64,000 nt of DNA from Albula goreensis (lineage: Eukaryota > Chordata > Actinopteri > Albuliformes > Albulidae): contig CM040747.1 in the NCBI GenBank assembly GCA_022829145.1, forward strand, positions 35,604,052-35,668,051. The letters run 5' to 3'. Shown here piece after piece: positions 1 to 63,977 of the stretch; the first letter of the stretch is position 1; each line of letters opens with the position of its first letter. The notes under the pieces were generated by a model. It was given only the letters and a program-made list of their open reading frames with translations, made no database searches and was not told where the DNA came from. A program made the position numbers and the translations under genes.

Positions 1-3000
1 CTTAACTCATGTATAGCACAGAAGCGAAGGAACGTGTTTCATGCGCACCTTAGAAACTCGCAAGTGCCACATCGCGTTTAGAACAACATTTCGTTTCATC
101 GGTGAAACAGTTTGTCATCGCACAGACTGGGAAGTGGACGAAGAAGCAGAAACTGAAAATGTTGACTTTTGTCGAATGCTTTACACACGCGTGTACGTTC
201 TTAAGTCTTTGCGAGGTGCGATCCAACGCATACTGTTAGAGTGAAGATTCAGTCACTGTGAGAGTTCTTTTCATTGCAGCGAGCTGTACTGCTCTCACAA
301 TGAAGGGAAATATGAACCTTACACTGGCACTGGCCAAGAAGGAAATCTGAAGTGTTGCAAGCCCAGGAATGAGAAATCATTAATACCTGACTTTGTTTTT
401 GAGCCAAACACAAAACTAAGGTTTCTTAGTCAAACAAGCTTGAAACTTGGATCTTGCATCCGTATACACTTTTGCAGTTGTTGGAGTGTACTGACAGTGA
501 AAACGTTTTCCTTCACTCACTTGAAGTTTTTTGGCTTTCTTAACTCATGTACAGCACAGGAGCGAAGGAACGTGTTTAATGCGCACCTTAGAAACTCGCA
601 AGTGCCACATCGCGTTTAGACTAACATTTCGTTTCATCGGTGAAACAGTTTGTCATAGCACAGACTGGGAAGTGTACGAAGAAGCAGAAACTGAAAATGT
701 TGAATTTTGTAGAATGCTTTACACACGCATGTACGTTCTTAAGTATTTGCGAGGTGCGATCCAACGCATACTGTTAGAGTGAAGAATCAGTCACTGTGAG
801 AGTTCTTTTTCATTGCAGCGAGCTGTACTGCTCTCTCACAATGAAGGGAAATATGAACCTTACACTGGCACTGGCCAAGAAGGAAATCTGAAGTGTTGCA
901 AGTCCAGGAATGAGAAATCATTAATACCTGACTTTGTTTTTGAGCCAAACACAAAACTAAGGTTTCTTAGTCAAACAAGCTTGGAAACTTGGATCTTGCA
1001 TCCGTATACACTTTTGCAGTTGTTGGAGTGTACTGACAGTGAAAACGTTTTCCTTCACTCACTTGAAGTTTTTTGGCTTTCTTAACTCATGTACAGCACA
1101 GGAGCGAAGGAACGTGTTTAATGCGCACCTTAGAAACTCGCAAGTGCCACATCGCGTTTAGAACAACATTTCGTTTCATCGGTGAAACAGTTTGTCATAG
1201 CACAGACTGGAAAGTGTACGAAGAAGCAGAAACTGAAAATGTTGACTTTTGTCGAATGCTTTACACACGCATGTACTTTCTTAAGTCTTTGCGAGGTGCG
1301 ATCCAACGCATACTGTTAGAGTGAAGATTCAGTCACTGTGAGAGTTATTTTCATTGCAGCGAGCTGTACTGCTCTCACAATGAAGGGAAATATGAACCTT
1401 ACACTGGCACTGGCCAAGAAGGAAATCTGAAGTGTTGCAAGTCCAGGAATGAGAAATCATTAATACCTGACTTTGTTTTTGAGCCAAACACAAAACTAAG
1501 GTTTCTTAGTCAAACAAGCTTGGAAACTTGGATCTTGCATCCGTATACACTTTTGCAGTTGTTGGAGTGTACTGACAGTGAAAACGTTTTCCTTCACTCA
1601 CTTGAAGTTTTTTGGCTTTCTTAACTCATGTACAGCACAGGAGCGAAGGAACGTGTTTAATGCGCACCTTAGAAACTCGCAAGTGCCACATCGCGTTTAG
1701 AACAACATTTCGTTTCATCAGTGAAACAGTTTGTCATCGCACAGACTGGGAAGTTTACGAAGAAGCAGAAACTGAAAATGTTGACTTTTGTCGAATGCTT
1801 TACACACGCATGTACTTTCTTAAGTCTTTGCGAGGTGCGATCCAACGCATACTGTTAGAGTGAAGATTCAGTCACTGTGAGAGTTATTTTCATTGCAGCG
1901 AGCTGTACTGCTCTCACAATGAAGGGAAATATGAACCTTACACTGGCACTGGCCAAGAAGGAAATCTGAAGTGTTGCAAGCCCAGGAATGAGAAATCATT
2001 AATACCTGACTTTGTTTTTGAGCCAAAAACAAAACTAAGGTTTCTTAGTCAAACAAGCTTGGAAAGTTGGATCTTGCATCCGTATACACTTTTGCAGTTG
2101 TTGGAGTGTACTGACAGTGAAAACGTTTTCCTTCACTCACTTGAAGTTTTTTGGCTTTCTTAACTCATGTACAGCACAGGAGCGAAGGAACGTGTTTAAT
2201 GCGCACCTTAGAAACTCGCAAGTGCCACATCGCGTTTAGAACAACATTTCGTTTCATCGGTGAAACAGTTTGTCATCGCACAGACTGGGAAGTTTACGAA
2301 GAAGCAGAAACTGAAAATGTTGACTTTTGTCGAATGCTTTACACACGCATGTACTTTCTTAAGTCTTTGCGAGGTGCGATCCAACGCATACTGTTAGAGT
2401 GAAGATTCAGTCACTGTGAGAGTTATTTTCATTGCAGCGAGCTGTACTGCTCTCACAATGAAGGGAAATATGAACCTTACACTGGCACTGGCCAAGAAGG
2501 AAATCTGAAGTGTTGCAAGTCCAGGAATGAGAAATCATTAATACCTGACTTTGTTTTTGAGTCAAACACAAAACTAAGGTTTCTTAGTCAAACAAGCTTG
2601 GAAACTTGGATCTTGCATCCGTATACACTTTTGCAGTTGTTGGAGTGTACTGACAGTGAAAACGTTTTCCTTCACTCACTTGAAGTTTTTGCCTTTCTTA
2701 ACTGATGTACAGCACAGGAGCGAAGGAATGTGTTTAATGCGCACCTTAGAAACTCGCAATTGCCACATCGCGTTTAGAACAACATTTCGTTTCATCGGTG
2801 AAACAGTTTGTCATCGCACAGACTGGGAAGTGGACGAAGAAGCAGAAACTGAAAATGTTGACTTTTGTCGAATGCTTTACACACGCATGAACTTTCTTAA
2901 GTCTTTGCGAGGTGCGATTCAACGCATACTGTTAGAGGGAAGATTCAGTCACTGTGAGAGTTCTTTTCATTGCAGCGAGCTGTACTGCTCTCACAATGAA

Positions 3001-5379
3001 GGGAAATATGAACCTTACACTGGCACTGGCCAAGAAGGAAATCTGAAGTGTTGCAAGTCCAGGAATGAGAAATCATTAATACCTGACTTTGTTTGTGAGC
3101 CAAACACAAAACTAAGGTTTCTTAGTCAAACAAGCTTGGAAACTTGGATCTTGCATCCGTATACACTTTTGCAGTTGTTGGAGTGTACTGACAGTGAAAA
3201 CGTTTTCCTTCACTCACTTGAAGTTTTTGGCTTTCTTAACTCATGTACAGCACAGGAGCGAAGGAACGTGTTTAATGCGCACCTTAGAAACTCGCAAGTG
3301 CCACATCGCGTTTAGAACAACATTTCGTTTCATCGGTGAAACAGTTTGTCATAGCACAGACTGGGAAGTGTACGAAGAAGCAGAAACTGAAAATGTTGAC
3401 TTTTGTAGAATGCTTTACACACGCATGTACGTTCTTAAGTCTTTGCGAGGTGCGATCCAACGCATACTGTTAGAGTGAAGAATCAGTCACTGTGAGAGTT
3501 CTTTTCATTGCAGCGAGCTGTACTGCTCTCACAATGAAGGGAAATATGAACCTTACACTGGCACTGGCCAAGAAGGAAATCTGAAGTGTTGCAAGTCCAG
3601 GAATGAGAAATCATTAATACCTGACTTTGTTTTGAGCCAAACACAAAACTAAGGTTTCTTAGTCAAACAAGCTTGGAAACTTGGATCTTGCATCCGTATA
3701 AACTTTTGCAGTTGTTGGAGTGTACTGACAGTGAAAACGTTTTCCTTCACTCACTTGAAGTTTTTGGCTTTCTTAACTCATGTACAGCACAGGAGCGAAG
3801 GAACATGTTTAATGCGCACCTTAGAAAGTAGTGAGTGCCACATCGCGTTTAGACTAACATTTCGTTTCATCGGTGAAACAGTTTGTCATCGCACAGACTG
3901 GGAAGTGTACGAAGAAGCAGAAACTGAAAATGTTGACTTTTGTCGAATGCTTTACACACGCATGTACTTTCTTAAGTCTTTGCGAGGTGCGATCCAACGC
4001 ATACTGTTAGAGTGAAGAATCAGTCACTGTGAGAGTTCTTTTCATTGCAGCGAGCTGTACTGCTCTCACAATGAAGGGAAATATGAACCTTACACTGGCA
4101 CTGGCCAAGAAGGAAATCTGAAGTGTTGCAAGTCCAGGAATGAGAAATCATTAATACCTGACTTTGTTTTGAGCCAAACACAAAACTAAGGTTTCTTAGT
4201 CAAACAAGCTTGGAAACTTGGATCTTGCATCCGTATACACTTTTGCAGTTGTTGGAGTGTACTGACAGTGAAAACGTTTTCCTTCACTCACTTGAAGTTT
4301 TTGCCTTTCTTAACTCATGCACAGCACAGGAGCGAATGAATGTGTTTAATGCGCACCTTAGAAACTCGCAAGTGCCACATCGCGTTTAGAACAACATTTC
4401 GTTTCATCGGTGAAACAGTTTGTCATGGCACAGACTGGGAAGTTTACGAAGAAGCAGAAACTGAAAATGTTGACTTTTGTCGAATGCTTTACACACGCAT
4501 GTACGTTCTTAAGTCTTTGCGAGGTGCAATCCAACGCATACTGTTAGAGTGAAGAATCAGTCACTGTGAGAGTTCTTTTCATTGCAGCGAGCTGTACTGC
4601 TCTCACAATGAAGGGAAATATGAACCTTACACTGGCACTGGCCAAGAAGGAAATCTGAAGTGTTGCAAGCCCAGGAATGAGAAATCATTAATACCTGACT
4701 TTGTTTTTGAGCCAAACACAAAACTAAGGTTTCTTAGTCAAACAAGCTTGGAAACTTGGATCTTGCATCCGTATACACTTTTGCAGTTGTTGGAGTGTAC
4801 TGACAGTGAAAACGTTTTCCTTCACTCACTTAAGTTTTTGGCTTTCTTAACTCATGTACAGCACAGGAGCGAAGGAACGTGTTTAATGCGCACCTTAGAA
4901 AGTCGCAAGTGCCACATCGCGTTTAGAACAACATTTCGTTTCATCGGTGAAACAGTTTGTCATCGCAGAGGCTGGGAAGTGTACGAAGAAACAGAAACTG
5001 AAAATGTTGACTTTTGTTGAATGCTTAACACACGCATGTACTTTATTAAGTCTTTGCGAGGTGTGATCCAGCGTATACGTAAGACAGAAGATTCAGTCAC
5101 TGTGAGAGTTCTTTTTATTTCAGAGCGCTCTACTGCTCTAAGCATGAACACGAACTTTACATTTCCAACGGCCGAAATTGAGACGTAAAGTGTTTGAAGT
5201 CTTAGAAAGACAAATCTTCAAAACATGACAATGTTAGTGAGCAAAACACAAAACTTAGTTTTCTGAGGTCGTATGAGCTTGGAAACTCGAATACTTCATC
5301 CGTATACACATTTGCAGTATTTGGCCTGCACTGACAGTGAAAACGTTTTCCTTCTCTCGCTTTTAGTTTTCTGGCTTCC
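1..5379 (+). repeat. Tandem satellite array, unit about 538 bp
   Basis: Ten head-to-tail units begin at 1, 539, 1081, 1620, 2159, 2697, 3235, 3772, 4309 and 4846, each starting with CTTAACTCATG or a close variant. Unit lengths are 538, 542, 539, 539, 538, 538, 537, 537, 537 and 534 bp. Units 1-9 are near-identical by eye, differing at scattered single bases. Unit 10 matches well for its first 200 bp and then diverges strongly. The array runs off the left edge of the window. Each unit keeps a short open frame of about 83 codons and an acceptor-like TTCTTTTCATTGCAG. No known RNA gene or protein domain is recognised in it, so it is called non-coding satellite DNA. Confidence 0.95.
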
Positions 5380-5705
5380 TTACCGCATGTACAGCACAGG
5401 AGCGACGAAACGTGTTTTCAAAGCACCTTACAAACACGCAAGTGTCATATCGCGTTCAGAACAACATTTCATTTCAAAGGTATAATGTTTGTCACCATAC
5501 AGACTTGGAAGTGTATGAAGAAGCAGAAACTGAAAATGTTGACTTTTACTGAATGCTTTACACACGCATGTGGTTTCATGTATCTTTGTGAGGTACAAGT
5601 CAGCATATAATGTTAGAGTGAAGTTTCAGTCACTGTGAGAGTCGTTTCAGGCCACATACTGCACATGTGTATAAGGATGCAAGATTACAGTTTCCAAGTT
5701 TGAAG
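5380..5705 (+). repeat. Decayed last forward satellite unit
   Basis: This stretch follows unit 10 in the same orientation and phase (CTTACCGCATGTACAGCACAGG matches the unit start). It carries many substitutions and small indels and stops about 60% of the way through a unit. It is the decayed margin of the array. Confidence 0.8.
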
Positions 5706-10165: not shown

Positions 10166-10183
10166 ATTGGTAGTGAGGGAACC

Positions 10184-10570
10184 ATGATTGCAAATCAGTT
10201 TGAGCAGCACTGTTGTAGAGGTGGTTTTCAGCAGCTGGGAGTGGAGAGGAAAGATGGGAAATGCAAACGAAGTACCCTGACATTTCTCTGTTTAAATGCT
10301 AGAAGCATAAAAAATAAAGTTTTGGATCTAGAAGCAGTTTTGAGTAATAGTCACTATGATGTTGTTGGGATCACAGAGATGTGGCTTGGTGCAGGGGATG
10401 GGGATGAGTATAACATAGAGGGATACAACGTGCTTAGAAAAGATAGAACCAATAGAAGAGGAGGGGGCGTAGCTCTGTATGTAAAGGATTATCTTAATAT
10501 CCAGGAAATTCCAGGTATGGAGCCTCTTGGTGTTAGTGATAGCATGTGGTTAGGTGTGCATGTGGGTTAA
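10184..10570 (+). pseudogene. CR1 ORF2 endonuclease N-terminal part
   Basis: The 128-codon frame has the AP-endonuclease-like opening of CR1 ORF2: LNARSIKNK, then VVGITEMWL (the catalytic Glu motif) and GGGVALYVKD. In the other CR1 copy this region continues through GDLNYPSINWE to SDHSAVTYE. Here the frame closes after GVSDSMWLGVHVG, and the later endonuclease motifs (about 10,610-10,960) sit in broken frames. The domain should therefore be non-functional. Confidence 0.85.
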
Positions 10571-11048
10571 AGTACTGGGGCAAAATGAAAAGGGTCTGAA
10601 TGTCAGAGTATGTTATAGGCCACCAGCCTCTGACAGCAGTGTCAACAGTATGCTCTTTGATAACATTACACTAGCATGTCAGGAGGGTGAGACAATAGTA
10701 ATGGGGGACTTGAACTAACCTTCAATTAATTGGGAAGCTGTGTCTGGTCAGGGTAAATGTGAGGAAAAAATTCTGGATGTTGTAAATGATTGTTTTCTGA
10801 TACAGTCTGTTACTCAACCTACAAGGGAGAACAAAATTCTAGACCTGGTTCTGTGTAATAATCGTGATGCAACTGCAGTACTGAGGTAGGGGAGCCACTT
10901 GGAACAAGTGACCATAGTGCAGTTACATATGAAGTTTTTTGGCGAGTTAAGACTACATCCTCCAGTGCTAGAATTTTCAACATCAGGTGAGCTGACTTTA
11001 TTAAAATGCGTGATTGTACAAGAAATATAAACTGGGTACTCTTGTCTT

Positions 11049-11098
11049 TTTCTCTCACAGTTCTACCACTCTTCTAGATGGTAGAACTGTGAGAGAAA
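11049..11098. repeat. Perfect 20-bp fold-back inside CR1 ORF2
   Basis: TTTCTCTCACAGTTCTACCA at 11049-11068 is the exact reverse complement of 11079-11098, with a 10-nt loop. The right arm is normal ORF2 coding sequence (DGRTVREMW). The left arm is an inverted extra copy that interrupts the frame between endonuclease and reverse transcriptase. The same structure is present in the other CR1 copy at 52619-52668. Confidence 0.95.
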
Positions 11099-11100
11099 TG

Positions 11101-12900
11101 TGGAACATATTTAAAACGATTATTCAGGATGTACAGTGTAAATTCATTCCGCAACTGCGAAAAGGGAAGCTGAAAAATAAGCATCTGCAGTGGATGAATA
11201 AGGCATTACATGATAGTTTGAAACATAAAAGGAAACTATTTCGAAAATTCAAGTTAGACAGCTCAGAGACAAACAAGATTGAATACAGTAAAATGCAAGC
11301 TCAAGTTAAGAAAGAAATAAGGGAAGCTAAAAGGCGTTTGGAAAGACAGATTGCGCTAGATGCAAAGAGCAACCCTACATGCTTTTTTCAATACTACAGT
11401 CGAAAAAGGATAGTTATAGACAAAATAAGAGGTTTAAAAACAAGGATGGACGTATGGTTTATGATAACAAGGCTATTGCTGATACCCTAAACAACTACTT
11501 TGTGGAGAGTTTCACTAGCGAAGTGTTTTCTCATATGCCTTCAGGTGCATTCAGTTCTCAGAGTCTTATGGAGGAAAATGATGCAGAAGTACTAGATAAA
11601 CTTCAAAAACTTAAACAAATAAGGCACCAGGTCCTGATGTAATATTTCCAAGAGTCCTCAGGGAACTAGCGGAAGAGGTCTACAAACCTCTGACAGTTAT
11701 TTTTAAGCAATCTCTTAAAACTGGAGAAATACCAGATGACTGGAAGCAAGGCAGTGTAGTACCAGAAACAGTACAACAATGGAGACCGGACTAATCCAGG
11801 AAATGATAGGCCTGTCAGCTTAACTTGTATCACTTGTAAATTACTGAAATCCATCATTAGGGACAATTTGGAATTATTCCTTGAACAAAATGGTATCTTA
11901 AATGATAGCCAGCATGATTTTCGCAGAGGGAGGTCATGCTTAACAAACCTCCCGGACTTTTTTGAGGAAGCTACAGCATGTTTAGATGCAAACCAAGCTT
12001 ATGACATTATCTATCTAGACTTCCAAAAGGCATTCGACAAAGTTCCGCATGAGAGGCTCATAGTGAAAATGAAATCTGCAGGCATATCAGGAGCTATCAC
12101 TGAATGAGTTCGAAGTTGGCTGACTGGTAGAAAGCAGAGTGTAACTGTTGGAGGAATTGTATCAGAGCAGGGTCCTGTAAGAAGTGAATTCCCGCAGGGA
12201 TCGGTGTTGGGGTCTTTGCTTTTCCTTATTTACATAAACAATCTTTTTTTTTGATTTGCAGATGACACAAAACTAGGGGGTCTAGCCAACAGTTTAGAAT
12301 CAACTAAGGTAACACAAGAAGACCTAAACAGCATCCATAAGTAGGCAGATACCTGGCAGATGACATGCAACTTAGCTAAATGTAACGTCTTGCATGTGGG
12401 AAATAAGAATCTTAGACAAGACTACTTCATGGGAGGAAGTAAACTAGAATGTGCTCGATCTGAAAAAGACTTGGGAGTAATAGTTGACCAAAGCTTAACA
12501 GGATCTAGACAGTGTGCTGTAGCAGTAAAAAAGGCCAACAGGATGCTGGGATATATAGCCAAAAGTATTGATTATAAATTTAAGGAGGTTATATTAAAAT
12601 TATACAATGCTTTAGTCAGACCCCACTTGGAATACTGTGTGCAGTTCTGGGCACCGCACAATAAGAAAGATATTGAGGCTCTTGAAAAAATACAAAGGTG
12701 AGCAACTAAATTAGTTCCTGGCATGAAATATAAAAGCTACGAGGCAAGACTCAAGTTACTGAACCTATTTAGACTCAGTAAGAGGAGACTAAGGGGTGAT
12801 TTAATAGGTTTTTAAATTTATAAAAGGACTCAACAAGGTTAACTACAATACATTTTTTAAAGTGAATTCAGTCTGTAAGACAAGGGGACATAAATGGACA
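11101..12900 (+). pseudogene. CR1 ORF2 reverse transcriptase and C-terminal region
   Basis: Pieces follow in order. MWNIFKTIIQDVQCKFIPQL...NKHLQWMNKAL (11100-11220) is the linker. HDFRRGRSCLTNLPDFFEEA and YLDFQKAFDKVPHERLI (11910-12060) are reverse transcriptase. FADDTK is encoded near 12255-12275 but in a shifted frame. NRMLGYIAKSIDYKFKEVIL and LEYCVQFWAPHNKKDIEALE (12540-12690) are the thumb and C-terminal part. At least four frame changes or stops separate them. It is a plain LINE relic. Confidence 0.88.
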
Positions 12901-21700: not shown

Positions 21701-24700
21701 GCAACTCCCGAATGGAGTTTGAGGGTTTTTTTTCTTTTCTGCGACTAACTGACCAATGATAACTTGGTCGACTAAGACTCTTCTCATTGACAAACAGTTG
21801 GTCGACTAATAGGGGGCATCCCTAGTATTTACCTTTGCGGAACAAGGTGTTTGGTGGCTTCAGCCAAGTGATATCTCAAATTAAGCACTGAAAAGCCCAA
21901 CAATGCAACAGAGACGCTGAGTATGATTTGAACACCCACACAAACACATCTGTTCACACCTTTGATAGGTGTTAATGGGCTCAGGGATTGGCGGTAGATC
22001 GGCATTTTTCCCCACCAACAGTGCAGGCTTTGTGTGCCATGGTTATTCGACCCATGGCCAACATCTGCTGCAAAGTACGCCATCTATCATCCATTATCTA
22101 CCATTATTTCAATCATTACACAGCCATGATTGGTCAATTGTTGGAGCTTCACAATGGTGTTTGGCTGAATACATTTTGGAAAAATGTAAATGCAGCAAAG
22201 CGATTGGCTGTCCATTCCAACATTTTGACGGACAGGCAGCACACTGAGGACCATTGTCCGGCTGCACAGTTTTATTGCTACCCAACACTCTTAGTATGTC
22301 CTGCCTGACCGAGATAGTAAACAAGATTCACAAATGGGTAGGGATTGACTGGCTGGGATGTGTAGGGCACTCCAGTGCTGGACCCAATTCAGCACAAAGT
22401 ATCAAAAGCACAGCTTGTGTTAAGTGAAACCAAATTCAACAGCCAGTCATCATCATAGACAGAAAAGCTGAACAGTCCCTGATGCTCCTGCTGCACTGTA
22501 CCATTCGCTATATCTTCTAAGAGTGCCAACGCAGCCATGGTCATGCTATCATGCTATTTTTACACACTTTGGGTTTATTTACATGAACAGCAGAAACTGG
22601 TAAATTAACCTTTTGTTCACATCTGTTAATTTTGGCAGTTACCTGTTCAGCAGAGAGGTACTGCACCCAGGTGGTGCAACTTAAATTTTACCTGGTTGCA
22701 ACACAGTAGAAAACCATGGATTCAAGTTACCTAAGGCTACTTAAGATGTCAAAATGAATCTTAATTTATTGAAAGTCCTCTGCCAAATTCTCCATCACTC
22801 AGCATATAACAGTTTGCTAGACACTTGCTAAAAATTGTACTTGCGTGTTTCTTTAAAAGTTTAAATTGAGATTCCTGTTAACTATGCAATATGTTGCACT
22901 AGCTATTCAATCAGGATGCATACTAACCTCATGTGTGAAGCATTAAGACAGGTAATTGTTCAGTTACAATATGAAATAATGTGCTGCTACAAATCTAAAA
23001 ATGAATTTTAAGATGGTTAGAGTTAAATAGTGCTACTCAGAGACAAGTCATAAGCCATTACATGTTAACCTTAGCTAATGTACTAAGCACACTATAAGCC
23101 AGTCTGCACACTTGCTCCCATGGATTAAATGCAACCAAACTCATGTCAAACATTCTTGTTAAAAATAATTCAGGAAACTAATTTGACCTATGGCAGCACT
23201 CCTCTCTGGTCATGCAAAATGCAAATATGCAAAATGGTGGCAATCCTTTAACAACCAATACACAACATTCATCCCAGTTGAAGAAAACAGCAATTATGTT
23301 AGACTCCATGAGTTAACCCCTGATTTTAAATATTATTTACAGTGGTGCTCAGGTGAGTTCAGGGGTTAGAGTGGGTATAAGCTCAGGTGAGTTTAGGGGT
23401 TAGAGTATGTATCAGCTCAGGTGAGTTCAGGGGTTAGAGTGGGTATCAGCTCAGGTGAGTTTAGGGGTTAGAGTGGGTATCAGCTCAGGTGAGTTTAGGG
23501 GTTAGAGTGGGTATCAGCTCAGGTGAGTTCAGGGGTTAGTGTGAGGTTCAGCTCAGGTGAGTTCAGGGGTTTGAGTGGGGTTCAGCTCAGGTGAGTTTAG
23601 GGGTTAGTGTGAGGTTCAGCTCAGGTGAGCTCAGGGGTTTGAGTGGGGTTCAGCTCAGGTGAGTTCAGGGGTTTGAGTGGGGTTCAGCTCAGGTGAGTTT
23701 AGGGGTTAGTGTGAGGTTCAGCTCAGGTGAGTTTAGGGGTTAGTGTGAGGTTCAGCTCAGGTGAGTTCAGGGGTTTGAGTGGGGTTCAGCTCAGGTGAGT
23801 TTAGGGGTTAGTGTGAGGTTCAGCTCAGGTGAGTTCAGGGGTTTGAGTGGGGTTCAGCTCAGGTGAGTTTTCTCATTCAGATGGATGGCACCGTTTGCAG
23901 GTTCCCAGGTGGAATAGCAAAGCTGGCACGCTATGTCCATGACCGTGGCCTGAAGCTGGGGATCTATGGAGACCTGGGCACTTTCACCTGCATGGGCTAC
24001 CCCGGGACCACGCTGGACAGGATCGACACCGATGCCCAGACCTTTGCTGAGTGGGGCATCGACATGCTGAAACTTGACGGCTGCTACTCCAACGCCACCG
24101 TGCAGGAGCAAGGTAAGAGGGGGGGCGGGGTTAAAGGGTAGTAGGGGTGGGAATCGACAGAGACGGATCGACAATCGACAGACCCACATAATTTCCCCCT
24201 ATAATGACAGCTTCAGTTTACTGAAACCTCTTTCAGAGTGTTTTCAGTCATATCCACTCAAACACCACTCAGATACCTTTTTGGTCAGAGCTGAGTTGGT
24301 GAGAATGAGAGCAATGCCACTTTGAACAAACATTAATACTGTCTTTAATATAAAACAACAAGGAGAGCAACTGTTAATGTACTGAAGTCACAGAATGATT
24401 AACAGACATGCAAAGATAGGCAGAGAATGAGAAAAGTAAAAAGAAATATTACAATTTACCATTAAATTAATACTTTAACTTGAATGATGTTTTTTCATAT
24501 TTTATATAAATTATATATATATTTTTTTCCAACACTGAAAATTCAAAATGAACCTACTGAGTAAACTAACCATTAAAAGCACCAATTCCTGTTTTAAAAG
24601 TGTATTTTGTGCTGAGAATGTATGCAAAATGAAAAAGGCTGTTTTCTCAGAACTGCAGTTTATAAAAGTACAATGTTCTATTTGACATTACGGCCAAAGT

Positions 24701-47019: not shown

Positions 47020-47410
47020 GACCTCTTAGGGGATAGGGGCCTTATGTGGTTCTGTATGTAAATGAATAGGGGCCTCAGTGTAAGGACATACAGGTTTAAG
47101 AGTAAGGGGATAGAGGCCATAGTTTAGGGGGATAGGGGTCTTAGTGTGAGGGGATGGGGGCCGTGATGTAAGGGGATAGGGGTCTTAGTGTGAGGGGATA
47201 GGGCCCCTAGTGTAAGGGGATAAAGGTTTAAGTGTAAGGGGATATGGGTCTTAGTGTTGGGGAATACGGATATGCATAGTGTAAGTAGAGATGATAGGCA
47301 TCTTTATGTCAAGGAATAGGGATCTTTCAGTAAGGGGATAGAGGCCATACTGTAATGGGATAGGGTGGGTGTGTGTAAGGGTATATGAGTCTTAACATAG
47401 GGGATAGAGG
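47020..47410 (+). repeat. G-rich minisatellite
   Basis: About 14 diverged units near 27 bp built on GGGGATAGGGG-TCTTAGTGTAA. Closely spaced runs of three to five G give quadruplex potential on the + strand. Confidence 0.85.
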
Positions 47411-51031: not shown

Positions 51032-51715
51032 TCACCTTAAAAATGTATTGTAGTTAACCTTTTTGAGTCCCTTTATAAATTTAAAAACCTCTATTAAGTC
51101 ACCCCTTAGTCTCCTCTTGCTGAGTCTAAATAGGTTAAGTAACTTGAGTCTTGCCTCGTAGCTTTTATGTTTCATGCCAGGAACTAATTTAGTTGCCCTC
51201 CTTTGTACTTTTTCAAGAGCCTTGATATCTTTCTTATAGTGCGGTGCCCAGAACTGCACACAGTATTCCAAGTGTGGTCTAACTAATGCGTTGTATAATT
51301 TTAATATAACCTCCTTAAATTTATAATCAATACTTTTGGCTATATATCCCAGCATCCTGTTGGCCATTTTTACTGCTACAGCACACTGTCTAGATCCTGT
51401 CAAGCTTTGGTCAACTATTACTCCCAAGTCTTTTTCAGATTGAGCACATTCTAGTTTACTTCCTCCCATGAAGTAGTCTTGTCTAAGATTCTTATTTCCC
51501 ACATGCAAGACTTTACATTTACTTATGTTGAATGTCATCTGCCAGGTATCTGCCCACTTATGGACGCTGTTTAGGTCTTCTTGTATTACCTTAGTTGATT
51601 CTATACTGTTGGCTAGACCCCCTAGTTTTGTGTCATCTGTAAATTTTACGATTTCACTACTAATCCCTGCATCAAGATTGTTTATGTAAATAAGGAAAAG
51701 CAAAGACCCCAACAC
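51032..51715 (-). pseudogene. CR1 ORF2 reverse transcriptase, C-terminal half
   Basis: The 227-codon frame starts GSLLFLIYINNLDAGI and covers VKFTDDTKLGG. The catalytic motif here is F-T-D-D where most CR1 elements have F/Y-A-D-D, a change likely to weaken or abolish polymerase activity. It then has CVQFWAPHYKKDIKALEKVQ and [20 protein letters not shown], the CR1 hallmark C-terminal region, ending in KKVNYNTFLR. The upstream half is in another frame at 52240-51812. Confidence 0.88.
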
Positions 51716-51811
51716 CGATCCCTGCGGGACTCCACTTCTTACAGGACCCTGCTCTGAAACAATTCCTCCAACAGTTACACTCTGCTTTCTACCAGTCAGC
51801 CAACTTCGAAC

Positions 51812-52628
51812 TCATTCAGTGATAGCTCCTGATATGCCTGCAGATTTCATTTTCACTATGAGCCTCTCCTGCGGAACTTTGTCAAATGCCTTTTGGAAGT
51901 CTAAATAGATAATGTCATGAGCTTGGTTTGCATCTAAACATGCTGTACCTTCCTCAAAAAAGTCCAGGAGGTTTGTTAAGCATGACCTCCCTCTGCAAAA
52001 ACCATGCTGGCTATCGTTTAAGATACCACTTTGTTCTAAAAATAATTCCAAATTGTCCCCAATGATGGCTTCCAGTAATTTACAAGTGATACAAGTTAAG
52101 CTGACAGACTTTGTTTTAAGTTTTCGAAGTTTATCTAGCACTTCTGTATCATTTAAATCAATTTCCTCCATAAGACTCTGAGAACTGAATGCTCCTGGAA
52201 TGCATATGAGCGAACCCTTCACTAGTGAAACTCTCCACAAAGTAGTTGTTTAGGGTATCAGCAATAGCCTTGTTATTTTTTAAACCTCTTATCTCATCCT
52301 TAAGTATCCTTTTTCGAATGTAGTATTGGAAAAAGCGTTTAGGGTTGTTCTTTGCATCTAGTGCAATCTGTCTTTCCAAACGCCTTTTAGCTTCCCTTAT
52401 TTCTTTCTTAACTTGAGCTCGCATTTTACTGTATTCAGTCTTGTTTGTCTCTGAGCTGTCTAACTTGAATTTTCTAAATGGTTCCCTTTTATGTTTCAAA
52501 CTATCATGTAATGCCTTATTCATCCACTGCAGATGCTTATTTTTCAGCTTCCCTTTTTGCAGTTGCGGAATGAATTTACACTGTACATCCTGAATAATCG
52601 TTTTAAATATGTTCCACATTTCTCTCAC
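51812..52628 (-). pseudogene. CR1 ORF2 linker and reverse transcriptase, N-terminal half
   Basis: Two overlapping frames. 52628-52158 carries REMWNIFKTIIQDVQCKFIP, then FRKFKLDSSETNKTEYSKMR and ADTLNNYFVESFTSEG. 52240-51812 carries NDSQHGFCRGRSCLTNLLDF and YLDFQKAFDKVPQERLIVKM. A stretch of about 180 bp present in copy 1 (RELAEEVYKPLTVIFKQSL-type sequence, 11650-11820) is missing between DKLRKLK and SVSLTCITCKLLEAI, so this copy has an internal deletion in the palm/fingers region. Confidence 0.85.
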
Positions 52629-52668
52629 AGTTCTACCATCTAGAAGAGTGGTAGAACTGTGAGAGAAA
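52619..52668. repeat. Same 20-bp fold-back in CR1 copy 2
   Basis: Arms 52619-52638 and 52649-52668 are exact reverse complements around a 10-nt loop (TCTAGAAGAG). They are identical in sequence and position in ORF2 to 11049-11098 of copy 1. Confidence 0.95.
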
Positions 52669-53593
52669 AAGACAAGAGTACCCAGTTTATATTTCTTGTA
52701 TAATCATGCATTTTAGTAAAGTCAGCTCGTCTGAAGTTGAAAATTCTAGCATTGGAGGATGTAGTCTTAACTCGCCAAAAAACTTCATATGTAACTGCAC
52801 TATGGTCACTTGTTCCAAGTGGCTCCCCTACCTCAGTACTGCAGATTCTATCAGGGTTATTACACAGAACCAGGTCTAGAATTTTGTTCTCTCTTGTAGG
52901 TTGAGTAACAGACTGTATCAGAAAACAATCATTTACAACATCCAGAAACTCTTCCTCATTCAATTTACCCTGACCAGATACAGTTTCCCAATTAATTGAA
53001 GGGTAGTTCAAGTCCCCCATTACTATTGTCTCACCCTCCTGACATGCTAGTGTAATGTTATCAAAGAGCATACTGTTGACACTGCTGTCACAGGCTGGTG
53101 GCCTATAAGATACTCTGACATTCAGACTCTTTTCATTTCCCCCCAGTATTTTAATCCGTATGTCTTCACTAACACCAAGGGGCTCCATACCTGGAATTTC
53201 CTGGATATTAAGATAATCCTTTACATACAGAGCTATGCCCCCTCCTCTTCTATTGGTTCTATCTTTTCTAAGCACGTTGTATCCCTCTATGTTATACTAA
53301 TCCCCATCCCCTGCACCAAGCCACATCTCTGTGATCCCAACAACATCATAGTTACTATTACTCATAACCGCTTCTAGATCCAAAACTTTATTTTTTATGC
53401 TTCTAGCATTTAAACAAAGAAATTTCAGGGTACTATGTGCGCATTTCCCATCGTTCCTCTCCACCTCCAGCTGCCCAAAACAACCTCTATGACAGTGCTG
53501 CTCTAACTGATTTGCAGTCATGGTTCCCTCACTACCAATAAAATAATTAGCCTTGGTGTGTTCTATTCCGGCAGTCTGTCTATCCCTACCCAT
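52640..53593 (-). pseudogene. CR1 ORF2 endonuclease
   Basis: 53593-53297 has LKFLCLNARSIKNKVLDLEA and VVGITEMWLGAGDGD. 53275-52640 has LRKDRTNRRGGGIALYVKDY, VMGDLNYPSINWETV and LGTSDHSAVTYEVFW. These are the Asn, Glu, GDLN and SDH motifs of AP-type LINE endonucleases. One in-frame stop splits it, just after GDGD, and the frame ends in the fold-back. Confidence 0.88.
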
Positions 53594-54497: not shown

Positions 54498-56340
54498 CAG
54501 GGGTCTCAAACTCAACTTACCTGGGGGCCGCTGGAGGTAGAGTCTGGGTGAGGCTGGGCCGCATCAAGTATTCCACAAATAAAGGGTTTCAAGTAATTTA
54601 AAAAAAGTACAACTGATCCAATCTTCTCAATCTTTATTATTAATAGTTCTTCAACATGAATGTTTATTCTGAACATGAACTGTCCTTCAGAACATGAACA
54701 GTTCTTCAGAACATAGGCTTCTCTTGCCTACTCCTTGCTACCAGAGACCCAGCAGCGCTTCCTCTCACACAGCTGAGCCACATTTGGCTTGAGGGAGGAA
54801 GCAGTTGAGTAAGTTTGGACCTGTACTTTGACTTATTGAAGTTCATGGTGGAGAAGAGCTTTTCACACAGATATGTGCTCCCAAAAAGGCACATGGTCTG
54901 CTTGAACATCCTGGAAAGCTCAGGGAAGGTGGGGGGCAATTCTCTCAAAAATTGTCCAAGCTTGTCTACTTTTCCACTCACCTCCCTGAACTTGGCTTTG
55001 AGTTCAGAATTGCCCTGCAGGTCAATGAGCTCCATTCTAAGCACAGGAGGGGCATCGTGCACATCGAAGGAAAAGGGGTCAGCATAAATTTGAAAAATGG
55101 CTCTGTGTCTGCAATGGCTCTGAAGTCTGCAAACCTGTGATCATATTCTTCCTGTAGCTTCACAATGGCATCAGCATACTTCTCACCACTGAATGGTGTG
55201 CCTTGCATGCTGGGAAATGGCAGAGGTTTGTCTGAGTGAGCTGGACTTTCCATAACATAAGTTTTGTGCAGAATGCGCTCACGTTGTCATAGGCAGCACT
55301 GACAAGCTGCCCCTGGCCTTGTAACTTCTTGTTCAGTAGATTTAGCTCCTGTGTGATGTCAACAAGAAAAGCCAAGTCCATGAGCCATTTGGGATCACTT
55401 AGAACAGGATCAGCCATCCCATCCTTCTCCATGAAGGCTTTCACTTCTGCTCTCAACTCAAAAAACCTCTTCAAGACGTTTCCCCTGCTGAGCCAACATC
55501 CTCATATGCTGACTCTATTTCCTCCAAAAAGGCACAGAACTCCCGGTGCTTTAAGCCCCTGGATCTGATATGGTTGATGCATTTCACAACGACAGACATC
55601 ACATTGTCAAACTTCAGGCATTTGCTGCAAAGGGCCTGCTGATGGATAATGCAGTGCAGAGCAATGGCCTCCTCCACACCCTCCTCTTCCAGTTTTCTTT
55701 GAACAAGTGCCACCAGTCCATTTCTCCTCCCTGTCACTGATGGCGCTCTGTCAGTTGCTCTTCCAGCAAACCTCTTCCATGGCAAACCGGCATCCACAAT
55801 GGCATCATACAGCTGGCAGAATATCTCCTGAGCGGCCGCCTTAGCAATCATCTCGCTCACCACTAAGCTAGCTTCGACTGCTGCATCATTCTCTTTGCTT
55901 GCTTTCTTGAAGAAATCTTGTCGCCTCAGTTGACATGTTTTAAGATTTGCGACCCGGTTCTCTCTTTCATCTCCCTGGTATTTTGCATACTCCTCAGCAT
56001 GTCTAGTTGAGTAATCATTTCTGATGTTGTATTCCTTGTGCACAGCAACTATTTCTGTGCATATAAGACACATCGGGGTAACCCTGTGCTCAACAAAAAA
56101 ATATTCCGCCTCCCACTTTTCCTGAAATTGTTTGTCCTCGTCGCCAACCTTTCTCTTCACGGCAGGTTTTGAGAAAGACATGACTGGGGCTGGGTGACAG
56201 CATATATTTTACTTCCAGTTGGTGTCACTCCGGAATCACGTTTCACCGAAGTAACTAACGTTACTAATTCGCGTTGGCTAACTTGACAACAGACGCCACC
56301 GGAAGCTGTCACGAGCCTGAGCTATGGTAGCCCATAAGTG
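54498..56340 (-). mobile_element. hAT (Charlie-like) transposon, one end recognised
   Basis: The left terminus CAGGGGTCTCAAACTCAACT starts at 54498, preceded by CTCTAACA (54490-54497), which fits the 8-bp hAT target pattern NTCTANNN. The matching right terminus was not found, and sequence of another MITE-like element begins at 56358, so the right end seems lost or displaced. The interior is a minus-strand transposase. Confidence 0.8.
54706..56181 (-). pseudogene. hAT transposase of GTF2IRD2/ZBED type, broken
   Basis: 56181-55471 starts MSFSKPAVKRKVGDEDKQFQ, with a BED-like Cys pair (CLICTEIVAVH) and the RNase-H-like core (RATDRAPSVTGRRNGLVALV, CIIHQQALCSKCLKFDNVMS). WLSRGNVLKRFFELRAEVKA and KWLMDLAFLVDITQELNLLN (55500-55330) follow in a second frame. 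MELIDLQGNSELKAKF and LFGSTYLCEKLFSTMNFNKS (55030-54830) form the C-terminal hAT dimerisation region in a third frame. It shows a short loss before WLSRGN plus at least two frameshifts. Similar to the transposase source of the vertebrate GTF2IRD2 C-terminus, but here it is an ordinary dead transposon. Confidence 0.88.
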
Positions 56341-57717: not shown

Positions 57718-58327
57718 TTAAAATGTGACTTTGATCTTCATGCAGGACTGCAGGCTGTCATCAGTGAGGTGAGAGCGGTGTTTGGGTTTAATGCAGTTCA
57801 TGTTAGAGAAAACCTGCTCACATAAGTATATAGATCCAAAGATGGACAGGGCTCCAAAGGCATACTTTTTCATGTTCACATACGTGTCAGGAATGGCATT
57901 CCACGTGTCAAATAATAGTTTGTCGGCTTTGGGGAGGCTCTCAATCTCACTCCATTTGTGCTCCTGAGCGAGAATAGCCCGCTGTCGGGCTACATCCTCC
58001 AGATCAGCGATTTTTCTTTTTTGAATTTGGCCATCCATAAGACTTTATCAGCTATGTCGGCAAGTTCAGGGTCAAGATCGGCATGATTTACTGCTGTGAA
58101 CGATGACATGTTCAGTTGTGATGGGTCGATGTATAGCGGCGTCACGGGGAAGGTTTGTGTGTTTCCTTTCTGAATTCACCGAATCTTTCCCCAAATGCGG
58201 TTTGCATTGTGGTGATTGCTCGCTGCAAATATACACAATTAAACACTCGATTTTCCTCCAAGACTTTTCTTTTTTTGGGTTGATCCATGGTTAGCTTACT
58301 GGGGGTCTGGAATTGAAGATAAGACAC
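57718..58327 (-). pseudogene. Remnant hAT transposase, two ends only
   Basis: 58327-58142 gives an N-terminal start (MDQPKKRKVLEENRVFNCVY...FGERFGEFRKE). 58038-57718 gives the C-terminal dimerisation part (YAFGALSIFGSIYLCEQVFS, NMNCIKPKHRSHLTDDSLQS). The large catalytic middle is missing, so the gene is an internal-deletion derivative. Confidence 0.8.
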
Positions 58328-58379
58328 CTGCAGGAAGAGCGCGCGGGAGGATGAGAGGTTTTGGCGGTGGATGCAGGGT

Positions 58380-58889
58380 ATTTATTTTTAACATGAAGGT
58401 AGCATAAGCTTCAGGGAGAGCACTGCCAAAACAATAAACAAACAAATCTAAATTTTATTAACTAACTTCTCATCAAAAAAAAAAAAAGAAAATAAAATAC
58501 AGGCAGCTAACCTACCTCCCTAACGTTAAACAAGAGAAAACGAAATACCAGGAACAAAAGAAAAGGCTGCTCACCCCTACAGCTACCAGGACTGCTTTAT
58601 GTACAGGGTTTGTTAATACGCAATCAAGAAAATACAGTTTGCCGTCATTCTGCAATTTCTGTGGTCATGCAGTATGGTCAAACAGGAAGCCGGGAAAAAA
58701 AAAACGGAGCGGGCTGGAATCCGACCGAGAGCCTTTTAAAGGTGGCGCAATTTCTCTTCTGGCCAATCCCCATCCACCACCTGCAACACAAGAACCTTAA
58801 AACACACAAACGGGGCGGATAGTACCACCATCAGGCAGGGAGGGAAAACACCACACAGAAAATTACACTTATGACGCAGAGTCATAACA
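58380..58889 (-). repeat. 3' long terminal repeat of the Gmr1-like element
   Basis: Closely matches 63246-63761. A short G-rich tract next to it on the internal side fits a polypurine tract. Confidence 0.9.
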
Positions 58890-61800
58890 CCCCCCAACCT
58901 AAGATCAAACATCTCTTGATCCAAAGAATGGATTGATATTTAAAACCCCACCCGTGGCAAGGCATCAGCAACCACATTATCAGTTCCTTTTATATGACGA
59001 ATTTCAATATTAAAATCCTGCAGCAACAAAGACCAGCGCATAAGACGCTGATTGTGGTTGCGCATTCGGGACAGGAACACAAGAGGATTGTGGTCTGAAT
59101 ACACAAAAACTGGTGTGGAGCTCGAACCAACATAAACCTCAAAGTGTTGTAACGCTAAAAGCACGGCGAGGGCTTCCTTCTCAATTGTACTGTAGTTTGC
59201 CTGATGTTTATTAAATTTCTTCGAAAAGTAACATACAGGATGATCAATCCCGCGATCGTCCTCCTGCAAAAGAACAGCGCCTGCACCATAAGCACTGGCG
59301 TCAACCTCTATTTTAAAAGGGCGTGCAAAATTAGGTGCAGACAGTACGGGCGCGCTACAAAGAAGAGCCTTGGCAGATTCAAATGAGTCCTGACATGCAA
59401 CCGTCCAGACAAACTGCCAGGAAGGGCTTACTAAACTAGTGAGTGGCGCAACTACACTAGCAAAATTCTTACAGAACCCACGATAATAGCCACACATACC
59501 AAGAAACCGGCGAAGTTGCCGCCGTGTTTCTGGCACAGGGAAATCCAGAATGGCTTGGACTTTGGCTGACAGGGGGCGTACCTGCCCCTGCCCTACTTGT
59601 TTTCCCAAGTACGTAACCACAGCTTTCCCAAACTCACATTTGGCTAGGTTCAAAGTCAAAGAGGCACCCTTTAAACGACTAAATATTTCTCGCAAAATTT
59701 CCAGATGCTCTGACCAAGTGGAAGAATAAGCCACAATGTCATCTAGGTACGCCTCACAGTTCTTGACATCTGAAAGAACCATATTCATTAGCCTTTGGAA
59801 CGTCGCAGGAGCATTTCGCAAACCAAAAGGCATAACAGTATATTTCAGGAAATGGTCAGGGGTGACAAAAGCCGAGATCTCAGATGCACGAGGTGAGAAA
59901 GGCACCTGCCAATATCCCTTCAGTAGGTCTAGCTTAGTTGCATACCTGGCTGATCCTACCCGATCAACACAATCATCCAGACGTGGAAGAGGAAACGAGT
60001 CTGGTTTAGTAACAGCATTTACTTTGCGGTAATCATTACAGAAACAAAATGTGTGATCAGGTTTTGGTACCAGCAGTGAGGGAGAGCTCCACAGACTGGA
60101 ACTTGGCACAGCAAAGCCATTTTCTAAAAGATACCCAACCTTTTGCATTTGAGCCCGTTTTTCTGGGTTGACACGATATGCGTGCTGCTTAATAGGCTTA
60201 TGGTCACCAACATCTACAAACAGCCAACTCACAGACAGAATGCAATCTCTCCCTGAATGAACTCACATAATCCAAAATATTGTGCTCGGGGCTGGGTCTG
60301 TCTGCTAGCCACTTCTCACGCAGCAAACGCAACGGGCCACGAACAGTGTGCCCAAAAACCAGCTCAGCCGGACTAAACCCGAGAGACTCCTGGGTAGTTT
60401 CACGAATTGCAAACAGAAACAGGGGCAACCCCTCATCCCACTCCCTACTCGATTCAACACAATATTTTCGAAGCATGGACTTTAATGTCTGATGAAATCT
60501 CTCCAGTGCACCCTGACTCTCTGGATGGTACGCACTGGAGACCTGATGTTTGACTGACAACTCTGCCATAACCTGAGCGAAAACCTTAGACATAAAATTA
60601 GATCCTTGATCAGTTTGAATACGTTTTGGTAAACCAAAAGTGGAAAAAAACTTAACCAAGGCTTTCACCACTGCTGTAGCCCTCAATGTGCGCAACGGGA
60701 CGGCCTCAGGGAAACGAGTAGCCGCGCACATCATAGTAAGCAGGTACTGGTGACCGGTCTTGGTTTTTGGCAGAGGACCAACACAGTCTATTATCACGTG
60801 CTCAAAGGGTTCACCCATTACAGGAATTGGATGTAAGGGAGCCGGTGGGATAACCTGGTTTGGTTTTCCCGTTATTTGGCAAATATGGCAAGATCTACAG
60901 AATTTAGTGACATCAGATTTTAACCCCGGCCAGAAAAAATATCGGAGGATCCGATGGTAAGTTTTCTTGATACCCAAATGGCCGGATAGACCGTGATCGT
61001 GGGCTAAACTTAAAACTTGAGGACGAAAATCTTTTGGCACAACTATCCGAGTAACCTTATCCCATTCCATCCCAGACACGGGAAACCATTTACGCAGCAA
61101 AACTCCTTCCTCAAAAAAGTAAGTCACAGACTGTGGAACATTTTTCGGTTCCTTAGCTTCAGACAAACAGGTAGCCAATGTACAATCAGATTGCTGAGCC
61201 TTAATGAGCTGGTCTTTATCTATCGCCAAGCGCAAATACATCTCGTTAGGTAACACATCAATTGACACCGACACATTTTTTGTTCAGAAGTGGGGGTGAC
61301 CGAGCCATCAGTCGAGTTCAAAAAACTATCGGCAAGGTCCACAACATCACCAAGCTTACGAGCCTGAGCACGTGTCACAACACACGCCGGAAAAACGGAA
61401 GGCGCTCTGAGCGCAGCGGGGGCAACAACACACACATTAGCCGTAGGATTTTCAACTACCTCGGGAGTCGTGGGAAACACTCTTTTTCCCGCCAAATCGT
61501 TTCCGAGAATGAGATCAACCCCTGCAACAGGCAGCTGATCTCGCACACCAACTCGCACCATTCCAGACACCAAGGAAGAGGAAATATTAACTGAATGCAG
61601 CGGCATGCGTAGAACGCTTAGTTTAATTCCCCACACCAATAGGTCCGAACCACAGTAGGACTGATCGGAAAAAGGCAAAACACCACATCGAGCTACAGAA
61701 TGCTTCGCACCAGTATCACGCAACATGGTAATTGGAACCTCGTCCTCCTTGTTACCAGTCAGAGAAACAAAACCTTGGGTAATAAAAGGCTTAAAATCCT

Positions 61801-63126
61801 CATCAATCTCCGGTTTCGGTAAAGTGTCGGTCAAAAGGTCCGGCGGACTCGCGACTGATCCACCCTGGATTAGCCCTACAGCCGAGGGATTTTTATACTT
61901 CGACTGTTCTTTTTTCTTCAACACAGGACAGACTGAAATAAGGTGGCCAGGTTCATGACAATAAAAACACGCACGACTTTCACCCACAGCAGAGAAATTT
62001 CGCCGGAAAACTTTTGGTGAACGCGTTTTTTTATTCTCCACAGTTTTATTCTCAACGGGTACTGGGACATCGGGACGCAAAAAAGACGAAAAAACACTCT
62101 TGTGGGTTAAAGCAAACTCATCCGCAAGGACAGCAGCTTCAGCGAGAGAGGCAACCTTTTGTTCATTCAAATATATCACAATGCGCTCGGGCAAACTATT
62201 TTTAAACTCCTCCAACAACACAAGCTCTCGCAATTGAGCAAAATCCCGAACTTTACTGGCTTGACACCATTTATCAAAGAGCGCCCCTTTTTCACGTGCG
62301 AACTCCACATAAGTCTGGTTGACACTTTTCTCACAATTTCCGAATTTCTGTCTATACGCTTCAGGTACTAATTCATAGGCACGTAACACAGTAGCCTTAA
62401 CCACATCATAATCCAAGCTCTGATCAACTGAGAGGGCGGCACACACCTCCTGAGCTTTTCCCACCAAATTACACTGAAGCAGTAATGACCAAACTTCCCT
62501 CGGCCAATTCAAAGTGGCTGCAATACGCTCAAATGCGTTAAAATACGAATCCACCTCAGACTCCCTGAACGGTGGAACAAGTTTAACATGCCTGCTCACA
62601 TCGAAGCTGTCTCGGGGAGAGTGTGGAGTTTGTGGTGTAACAGGTGGATAGGGAGCGACAGTAGGCTGGCGTTCCAGCTCTAAAGCCTTCACTCTGAGCT
62701 GCATAGCCTCTACCTCCAACTCCCGATTTCTCACCTCCATTTCCTTGATGCGGACTGTCAGCCGGAGCTCCTCATTTGACATCCCCGGCGTAAAAGGAGG
62801 GTCTGCGGGAGCGGGCGGCACAGGATCCCGTAGCTCCACCTCAGCTTTTCCCGCTCCATCTACAATGGACAAATCCTCAAACAAACCCATCTCCCCCAGC
62901 TTCTCAACCACGAGCTGTTTCAGCTCCCTTTTATTGGCATGTAGCGGCACCCGCACGTTACACAGATCAGCAACAAGCCTCAAATCCACTTTCCTACATT
63001 TATTAAGTTGTACCAACGTAGGATTTCTTGCAAAACTATCCAAATCAAACTCCATATTGTCACCCCTCTCCACAAAAAAAAAGTCAACCAGAAATAAAAA
63101 AAAAAAAAAGACGAGCCCCCAATTTA

Positions 63127-63761
63127 TGTTACGACCGGCCCTAGGGGATCCTGCGTAGCATAAAAAATTGACTTCCCCCTTTTCCCCACTCCCAAGGATG
63201 ACCAAGGCCACAGTATTGCAGTCCAAAATGCAGTCCAAAATTTACTATTTATTTTTAACATGAAGGTAGCATAAGCTTCAGGGAGAGCACTGCCAAAACA
63301 ATAAACAAACAAATCTAAATTTTATTTACTAACTTCTCATCAAAAAAAAGAAAATAAAATACAGGCAGCTAACCTACCTCCCTAACGTTAAACAAGAGAA
63401 AACGAAATACCAGGAACAAAAGAAAAGGCTGCTCACCCCTACAGCGACCAGGACTGCTTTATGTACAGGGTTTGTTAATACGCAATCAAGAAAATACAGT
63501 TTGCCGTCATTCTGCAATTTCTGTGGTCATGCAGTATGGTCAAACAGGAAGCCGGAAAAAAAAAAAAAAAAAAAAAAAAAGCGGGCTGGAATCCGACCGA
63601 GAGCCTTTTAAAGGTGGCGCAATTTCTCTTCTGGCCAATCCCCATCCACCACCTGCAACACAAGAACCTTAAAACACACATACAGGGCGGATAGTACCAC
63701 CATCAGGCAGGGAGGGAAAACACCACACAGAAAATTACACTTATGACTCAGAGTCATAACA
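63127..63761 (-). repeat. 5' long terminal repeat of the Gmr1-like element
   Basis: Bounded by TGTTACGAC and GTCATAACA inverted termini; 635 bp. It contains a poly-A run at 63556-63580. Confidence 0.9.
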
Positions 63762-63963
63762 ACGCATTATTGGGACAAACTAATATTTGCGAAATAAAAT
63801 TTAAGTTTTATTAATACTCAATTTAATCATTCAGAGTATAGCGTAAATACATATAAAAATAGCTGATGTCATTTTTATAAATTCTTTCCAACTTTTTTCC
63901 CCCCAAACTGGCGGGAGCCACAGCTGGGGGGCCAAAGAGCCGCATGCGGCTCCTGAGCCGCGG
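63762..63963. other. Right arm of the large hAT element
   Basis: Non-coding hAT sequence between the retroelement and the right terminus. Confidence 0.8.
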
Positions 63964-63977
63964 GTTGCCGACCCCTG

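Follow-up and report, generated by a model that had tools for sequence, protein, structure and literature searches.

The Gmr1 group of Ty3/Gypsy LTR retrotransposons, for which the original report is said to be that of Goodwin and Poulter in 2002, is thought to be the source of the vertebrate SCAN domain. According to passages in PMC6238403 and PMC8220671, the mark of this unusual clade is an integrase that lies upstream of the reverse transcriptase (RT). Passages of PMC3424704 and PMC4592553, where Emerson and Thomas 2011 is cited, trace the SCAN domain to a Gmr1-like gag and treat it as a homologue of the C-terminal part of the gag capsid. In pufferfishes and their relatives, the consensus sequences of Gmr1–Gmr4 measure 6058–6465 bp with LTRs of 337–518 bp; they carry one fused gag-pol ORF of 1506–1634 amino acids, and an env gene goes unreported in the part of PMC11117352 that describes them. 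In frogs, more than half of the Gmr elements carry SCAN, and the domain is reported from no other type of element in these hosts (PMC4131045).

The element described here comes from Albula goreensis and was found in a window of 64 kb (G000:C7:35604052-35668051), i.e., the whole stretch of DNA that was analysed, from a genome of 932 Mb in 208 contigs. It occupies positions 58379-63761 of the window on the minus strand (5383 bp), and its interior is enclosed, in the minus-strand reading, by direct repeats at 58379-58889 and 63246-63761. With a probability of about 0.9, we regard it as a copy, defective and fairly young, of a Ty3/Gypsy LTR retrotransposon of the Gmr1-like kind. It is an ordinary element of a previously described kind. 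To the Gmr1 group it adds one recent, broken copy with family LTRs and a clear SCAN gag, and it leaves the known picture unchanged, save that the original prediction's description of the copy as nearly whole has to be corrected.

With the Gmr1 clade, the element shares the upstream integrase, the Gypsy-type RT/RNase H and the SCAN-like gag capsid. Unlike the clade, the window copy is split-framed, has no integrase C-terminal domain and probably no RT N-terminus, and ends in a truncated 3′ LTR. Compared with the pufferfish Gmr1–Gmr4, for which an env gene is not reported, it is of the same size class and its three ORFs likewise gave no env match in Pfam, but it measures 5383 bp, has three ORFs and possesses a longer LTR of 635 bp. 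The frog Gmr elements, over half of which carry SCAN, have this domain in common with it and differ in host.

Domain order and the gag of a Gmr1-like element

Two direct LTRs, the 3′ one truncated, flank a gag-pol region that reads, on the minus strand, gag, protease (PR), integrase (IN), RT and RNase H (RH) (Table 1). We take this order to be real on the strength of the Pfam domains and catalytic motifs in the three ORFs. Thus, the second ORF matches Integrase_H2C2 and rve, and the third matches RVT_1 and RT_RNaseH. The integrase has the D,D(35)E residues, the RT a YLDD box and the RNase H its acidic motifs. The protease is assigned by DTGA (as DTGAKHS) and ILGND, presumably typical protease motifs, both present in the gag-protease ORF; the retropepsin family profile of Pfam gave no match in this ORF. 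The original prediction had placed an element of this order here, and the LTR repeats, Pfam domains and motifs bear out both position and order, with PR by motif only.

Table 1. Features of the element and of its immediate flanks (window positions).
Feature	Position	Strand	Basis
5′ LTR, 635 bp, TGTTATGAC...GTCGTAACA	63127..63761	-	13 of the 36 other genomic matches listed span query 1 to 634-636
Putative primer binding site TGGGGGCTCGTC	63110..63121	-	5 nt past LTR end; read from sequence
Gag-protease ORF, 611 aa from ATG	61220..63055	-	ORF and Pfam
SCAN domain (capsid C-terminal part), gag aa 231-319	62099..62365	-	PF02023 E=5.6e-14, 52.1 bits vs curated cut-off 27
CCHC zinc knuckle CX2CX4HX4C, gag aa 363-376	61928..61969	-	Motif; PF13696 E=0.0016, below cut-off
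Protease active-site motif DTGAKHS	61697..61717	-	Motif only
Integrase ORF: H2C2 zinc domain and DDE core, without C-terminal domain	60204..61283	-	Integrase_H2C2 (PF17921) 2e-23, rve (PF00665) 1.5e-15; D,D(35)E
Deletion junction, 6 nt vs 533 bp (C16) or 508 bp (C23)	60217..60222	-	Comparison with two related copies
RT/RNase H ORF, probably without RT N-terminus	58940..60262	-	RVT_1 (PF00078) 4e-30, RT_RNaseH (PF17917) 1.7e-33
Putative polypurine tract AGGTTGGGGGG, adjoining 3′ LTR	58890..58900	-	Sequence
3′ LTR without last 119 bp	58379..58889	-	Matches LTR positions 1-516 only
Host hAT copy, presumed 5′ end, outside element	63762..63977	-	hAT-like terminal sequence
hAT transposase C-terminal remnant, other side of insertion	57718..58038	-	PF05699 E=5e-4, 20.2 bits vs cut-off 21.4

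A gag with a SCAN-like capsid had also been predicted, and the comparison of the capsid region with SCAN profiles found the similarity rather than its absence: PF02023 matches well over its curated cut-off (Table 1), and the capsid piece searched alone matches the Pfam SCAN family at E=8e-15. When a single sequence was searched against solved structures, the SCAN chains appeared weakly (ZNF42, E=0.028; ZNF174, E=0.55). Three of the five rows of that search were chains of a single unrelated bacterial toxin, also weak, which we took to be chance matches. The Pfam matches of zinc knuckles in gag were all below their cut-offs. The SCAN domain of vertebrate zinc finger proteins belongs to the same Pfam family as that of the element; the latter, however, resides in the gag-protease ORF of a mobile element, whereas the former is part of a host transcription factor.

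Because the domain order and a gag SCAN over its cut-off are both published marks of the clade, we assign the element to the Gmr1-like group, and its identification as such in the original prediction is most likely right. The integrase-first order stands apart from that of other integrase loci in the same genome. Among the best-scoring 8 of the 150 rve matches listed, RT/RNase H precedes integrase in seven; the eighth (L002) lies at a contig end, holds integrase only, and its order is unreadable. The RT/RNase H itself is of the Gypsy type, with Ty3 on top of the 21 rows of solved-structure matches (E=5.6e-84). Searches for further relatives returned none for RT in the viral_contigs (RT and a two-row RT alignment) and genome_contigs (RT) scans, and none for integrase in the viral_contigs scan; NCBIfam gave only distant transposase matches to the integrase core, all below their cut-offs.

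One could argue that integrase came to precede RT in a Gypsy element outside the Gmr1 clade, by a separate event. Indeed, the RT shares 39% identity with Ty3 and 38% with L006, an element of the host genome in which the order is the usual one, so that identity alone gives no placement and leaves room for this idea. Against it, the SCAN gag and the order co-occur here as published for Gmr1, and a second origin of both together would be unlikely; we therefore consider an independent origin improbable and retain the Gmr1-like assignment.

Internal deletion and broken reading frames

Two related copies, C16 and C23, were compared with the window copy at the IN/RT boundary, where they hold 533 and 508 bp, respectively, in place of its 6 nt. 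On the integrase side of this junction, C16 is 94% and C23 is 93% identical to the window copy (627–628 nt); on the RT side, the values are 93% for C16 (444 nt) and 88% for C23 (103 nt). The 533-bp segment of C16 codes for 177 amino acids that include Integrase_p58_C (Pfam, E=1.6e-11). The window copy has lost the integrase C-terminal domain with these ~530 bp. In solved-structure alignments, its integrase ORF runs out at residue 280 of 395 of the PFV integrase and at 1328 of 1547 of the Ty3 gag-pol. The same deletion probably removed the RT N-terminus as well, since the segment is continuous with RT in C16 and the alignment to the Ty3 RT begins only at residue 67. The IN-RT stretch fetched from C16 is a single open frame, in which RT runs upstream in frame with IN. 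C23 has a frame change inside its 508-bp segment and is also without the part of RT corresponding to query 786-1041.

In the window copy, gag-PR and RT are in one frame and the integrase is in another, which gives three ORFs in two frames, and the gag-PR and integrase ORFs overlap by 64 nt (61220-61283). The single fused gag-pol ORF described for fish Gmr elements in PMC11117352 is thus absent from this copy. We treat such an ORF as a property of potentially working copies, not as a mark that defines the clade, and we read the split frames as damage. That the overlap is instead a conserved programmed frameshift of the family, unlike what is found in other fish Gmr elements, has little probability. 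Together with the internal deletion and the truncated 3′ LTR, the split frames contradict the claim that the element is nearly whole.

Alternatively, the short form might represent a non-autonomous lineage that is spread by the proteins of complete relatives. Divergence between the two LTRs amounts to only about 1%, as such a lineage would allow, and from one copy a deletion before insertion looks the same as one after it. However, C16 and C23, which are both of the copies read at the junction, hold the segment, and L038, a third locus with internal sequence, has about 325 nt between its IN and RT matches, an arrangement different from that of the window copy and from that of C16 and C23. We therefore rate this reading as very improbable. 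The weakest one, in which the element belongs to Ty1/Copia, where integrase normally precedes RT, draws on the domain order and is scarcely credible, given that the RT/RNase H has Ty3 as its best solved-structure match, that the RT matches RVT_1 and RT_RNaseH, the integrase matches Integrase_H2C2 and the gag has SCAN, and that RVT_2, which we take to be the Copia RT profile, is absent among the Pfam rows at E≤1; it was rejected on the RT evidence.

We thus return to a damaged Gmr1-like copy and to what it would have done when intact. LTR elements are transcribed from the LTR, make a gag-pol polyprotein, package their RNA, reverse-transcribe it from a tRNA primer and integrate. By analogy, a functional relative would be translated into a single gag-PR-IN-RT-RH polyprotein, whose gag part, SCAN-like at the C-terminal end of the capsid, would encapsidate the RNA. 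Reverse transcription would be primed by a tRNA; the putative primer binding site resembles what we take to be a tRNA-Pro site, complementary to the 3′ end of that tRNA. Insertion of the DNA by the integrase would then duplicate 4 bp of the target, and such a duplication is seen at solo LTRs of the family. A tRNA scan found no tRNA genes in the 64-kb window, and an Rfam scan of the same window gave no match. With ~530 bp lost, the reading frame interrupted between protease and integrase, and the 3′ LTR cut short, the window copy is not expected to transpose with proteins of its own, although transcription might still take place.

LTRs, age and copies of the family

A search of the host genome with the 5′ LTR gave at least 38 matches from 32 scored candidates, two of which are the window's own. 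The full length of the LTR, 635 bp, follows from the matches that span the query end to end (Table 1), and the window 3′ LTR is accordingly 119 bp short. Internal element sequence, defined as a blastn match of E≤1e-8 within 1.5 kb of the LTR (a criterion that would miss diverged insides), was present in 3 of the 28 other loci fetched, namely L013, L015 and L038; some of the 28 are pieces of one place. At that sensitivity, the remaining 25 look like solo or fragmentary LTRs. Besides the pair in the window, no two LTRs among the matches listed could be placed as the ends of one element. L038 (G000:C20:906963-910078) is a diverged relative, with the IN–RT spacing given above.

The flanks of ten other copies were inspected, six of them solo LTRs with clean ends. 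Five of these six (L011, L014, L016, L018 and L020, not L010) are flanked by 4-bp target duplications. In the window copy, the duplication went missing together with the end of the 3′ LTR and the adjoining flank.

The two LTRs of the window copy differ at 9 of 506 sites in the first, unmasked alignment (K2P 0.018). After this alignment, 47 columns around two poly-T tracts were masked, and outside these tracts there are 5 substitutions in 479 sites (K2P 0.0105). Divergence this low agrees with the expectation that the element is young. At 2.5e-9 to 1e-8 substitutions per site per year, rates that are assumed and uncalibrated for the host, the masked value corresponds to about 0.5–2 million years. 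The figure is rough, because the 3′ LTR is no closer to its 5′ partner than to L010, a solo LTR elsewhere (K2P 0.0105 in both cases).

Coding constraint was assessed by comparing pieces of the window copy with C16 or C23. Five comparisons (143–343 codons) gave dN/dS ratios of 0.14–0.29; one more, over 29 codons, gave 0.125. Stops were absent among the compared codons, with codons touching gaps left out. These low ratios and stop-free codons argue that the lineage of the family replicated under coding constraint.

Surroundings of the insertion

The sequence directly upstream of the element resembles what we take to be a hAT terminus, and downstream, on the same strand, is a remnant of a hAT dimerisation domain that scores just under its cut-off (Table 1). 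Most likely, the element landed in a defective hAT copy. Further along, a zinc finger of the Spin-doc type (PF18658, E=7.4e-7) lies in an ORF at 55471-56208 (-), which may be one more fragment of a hAT-related transposase.

The rest of the window holds other repeats. Two LINE copies lie in inverted orientation, at 10166-12807 (+) and 51091-53539 (-), with aligned blocks 94–96% alike; the second has endonuclease and RT domains. Positions 1-5650 form a tandem array with a unit of about 538 bp, a 300-nt part of which occurs in 10 copies, 8 of them at 95–100% to the reference. A 34-bp unit makes up a second tandem array at 23279-23972, and a degenerate 22-bp tandem repeat is found at 47044-47365.
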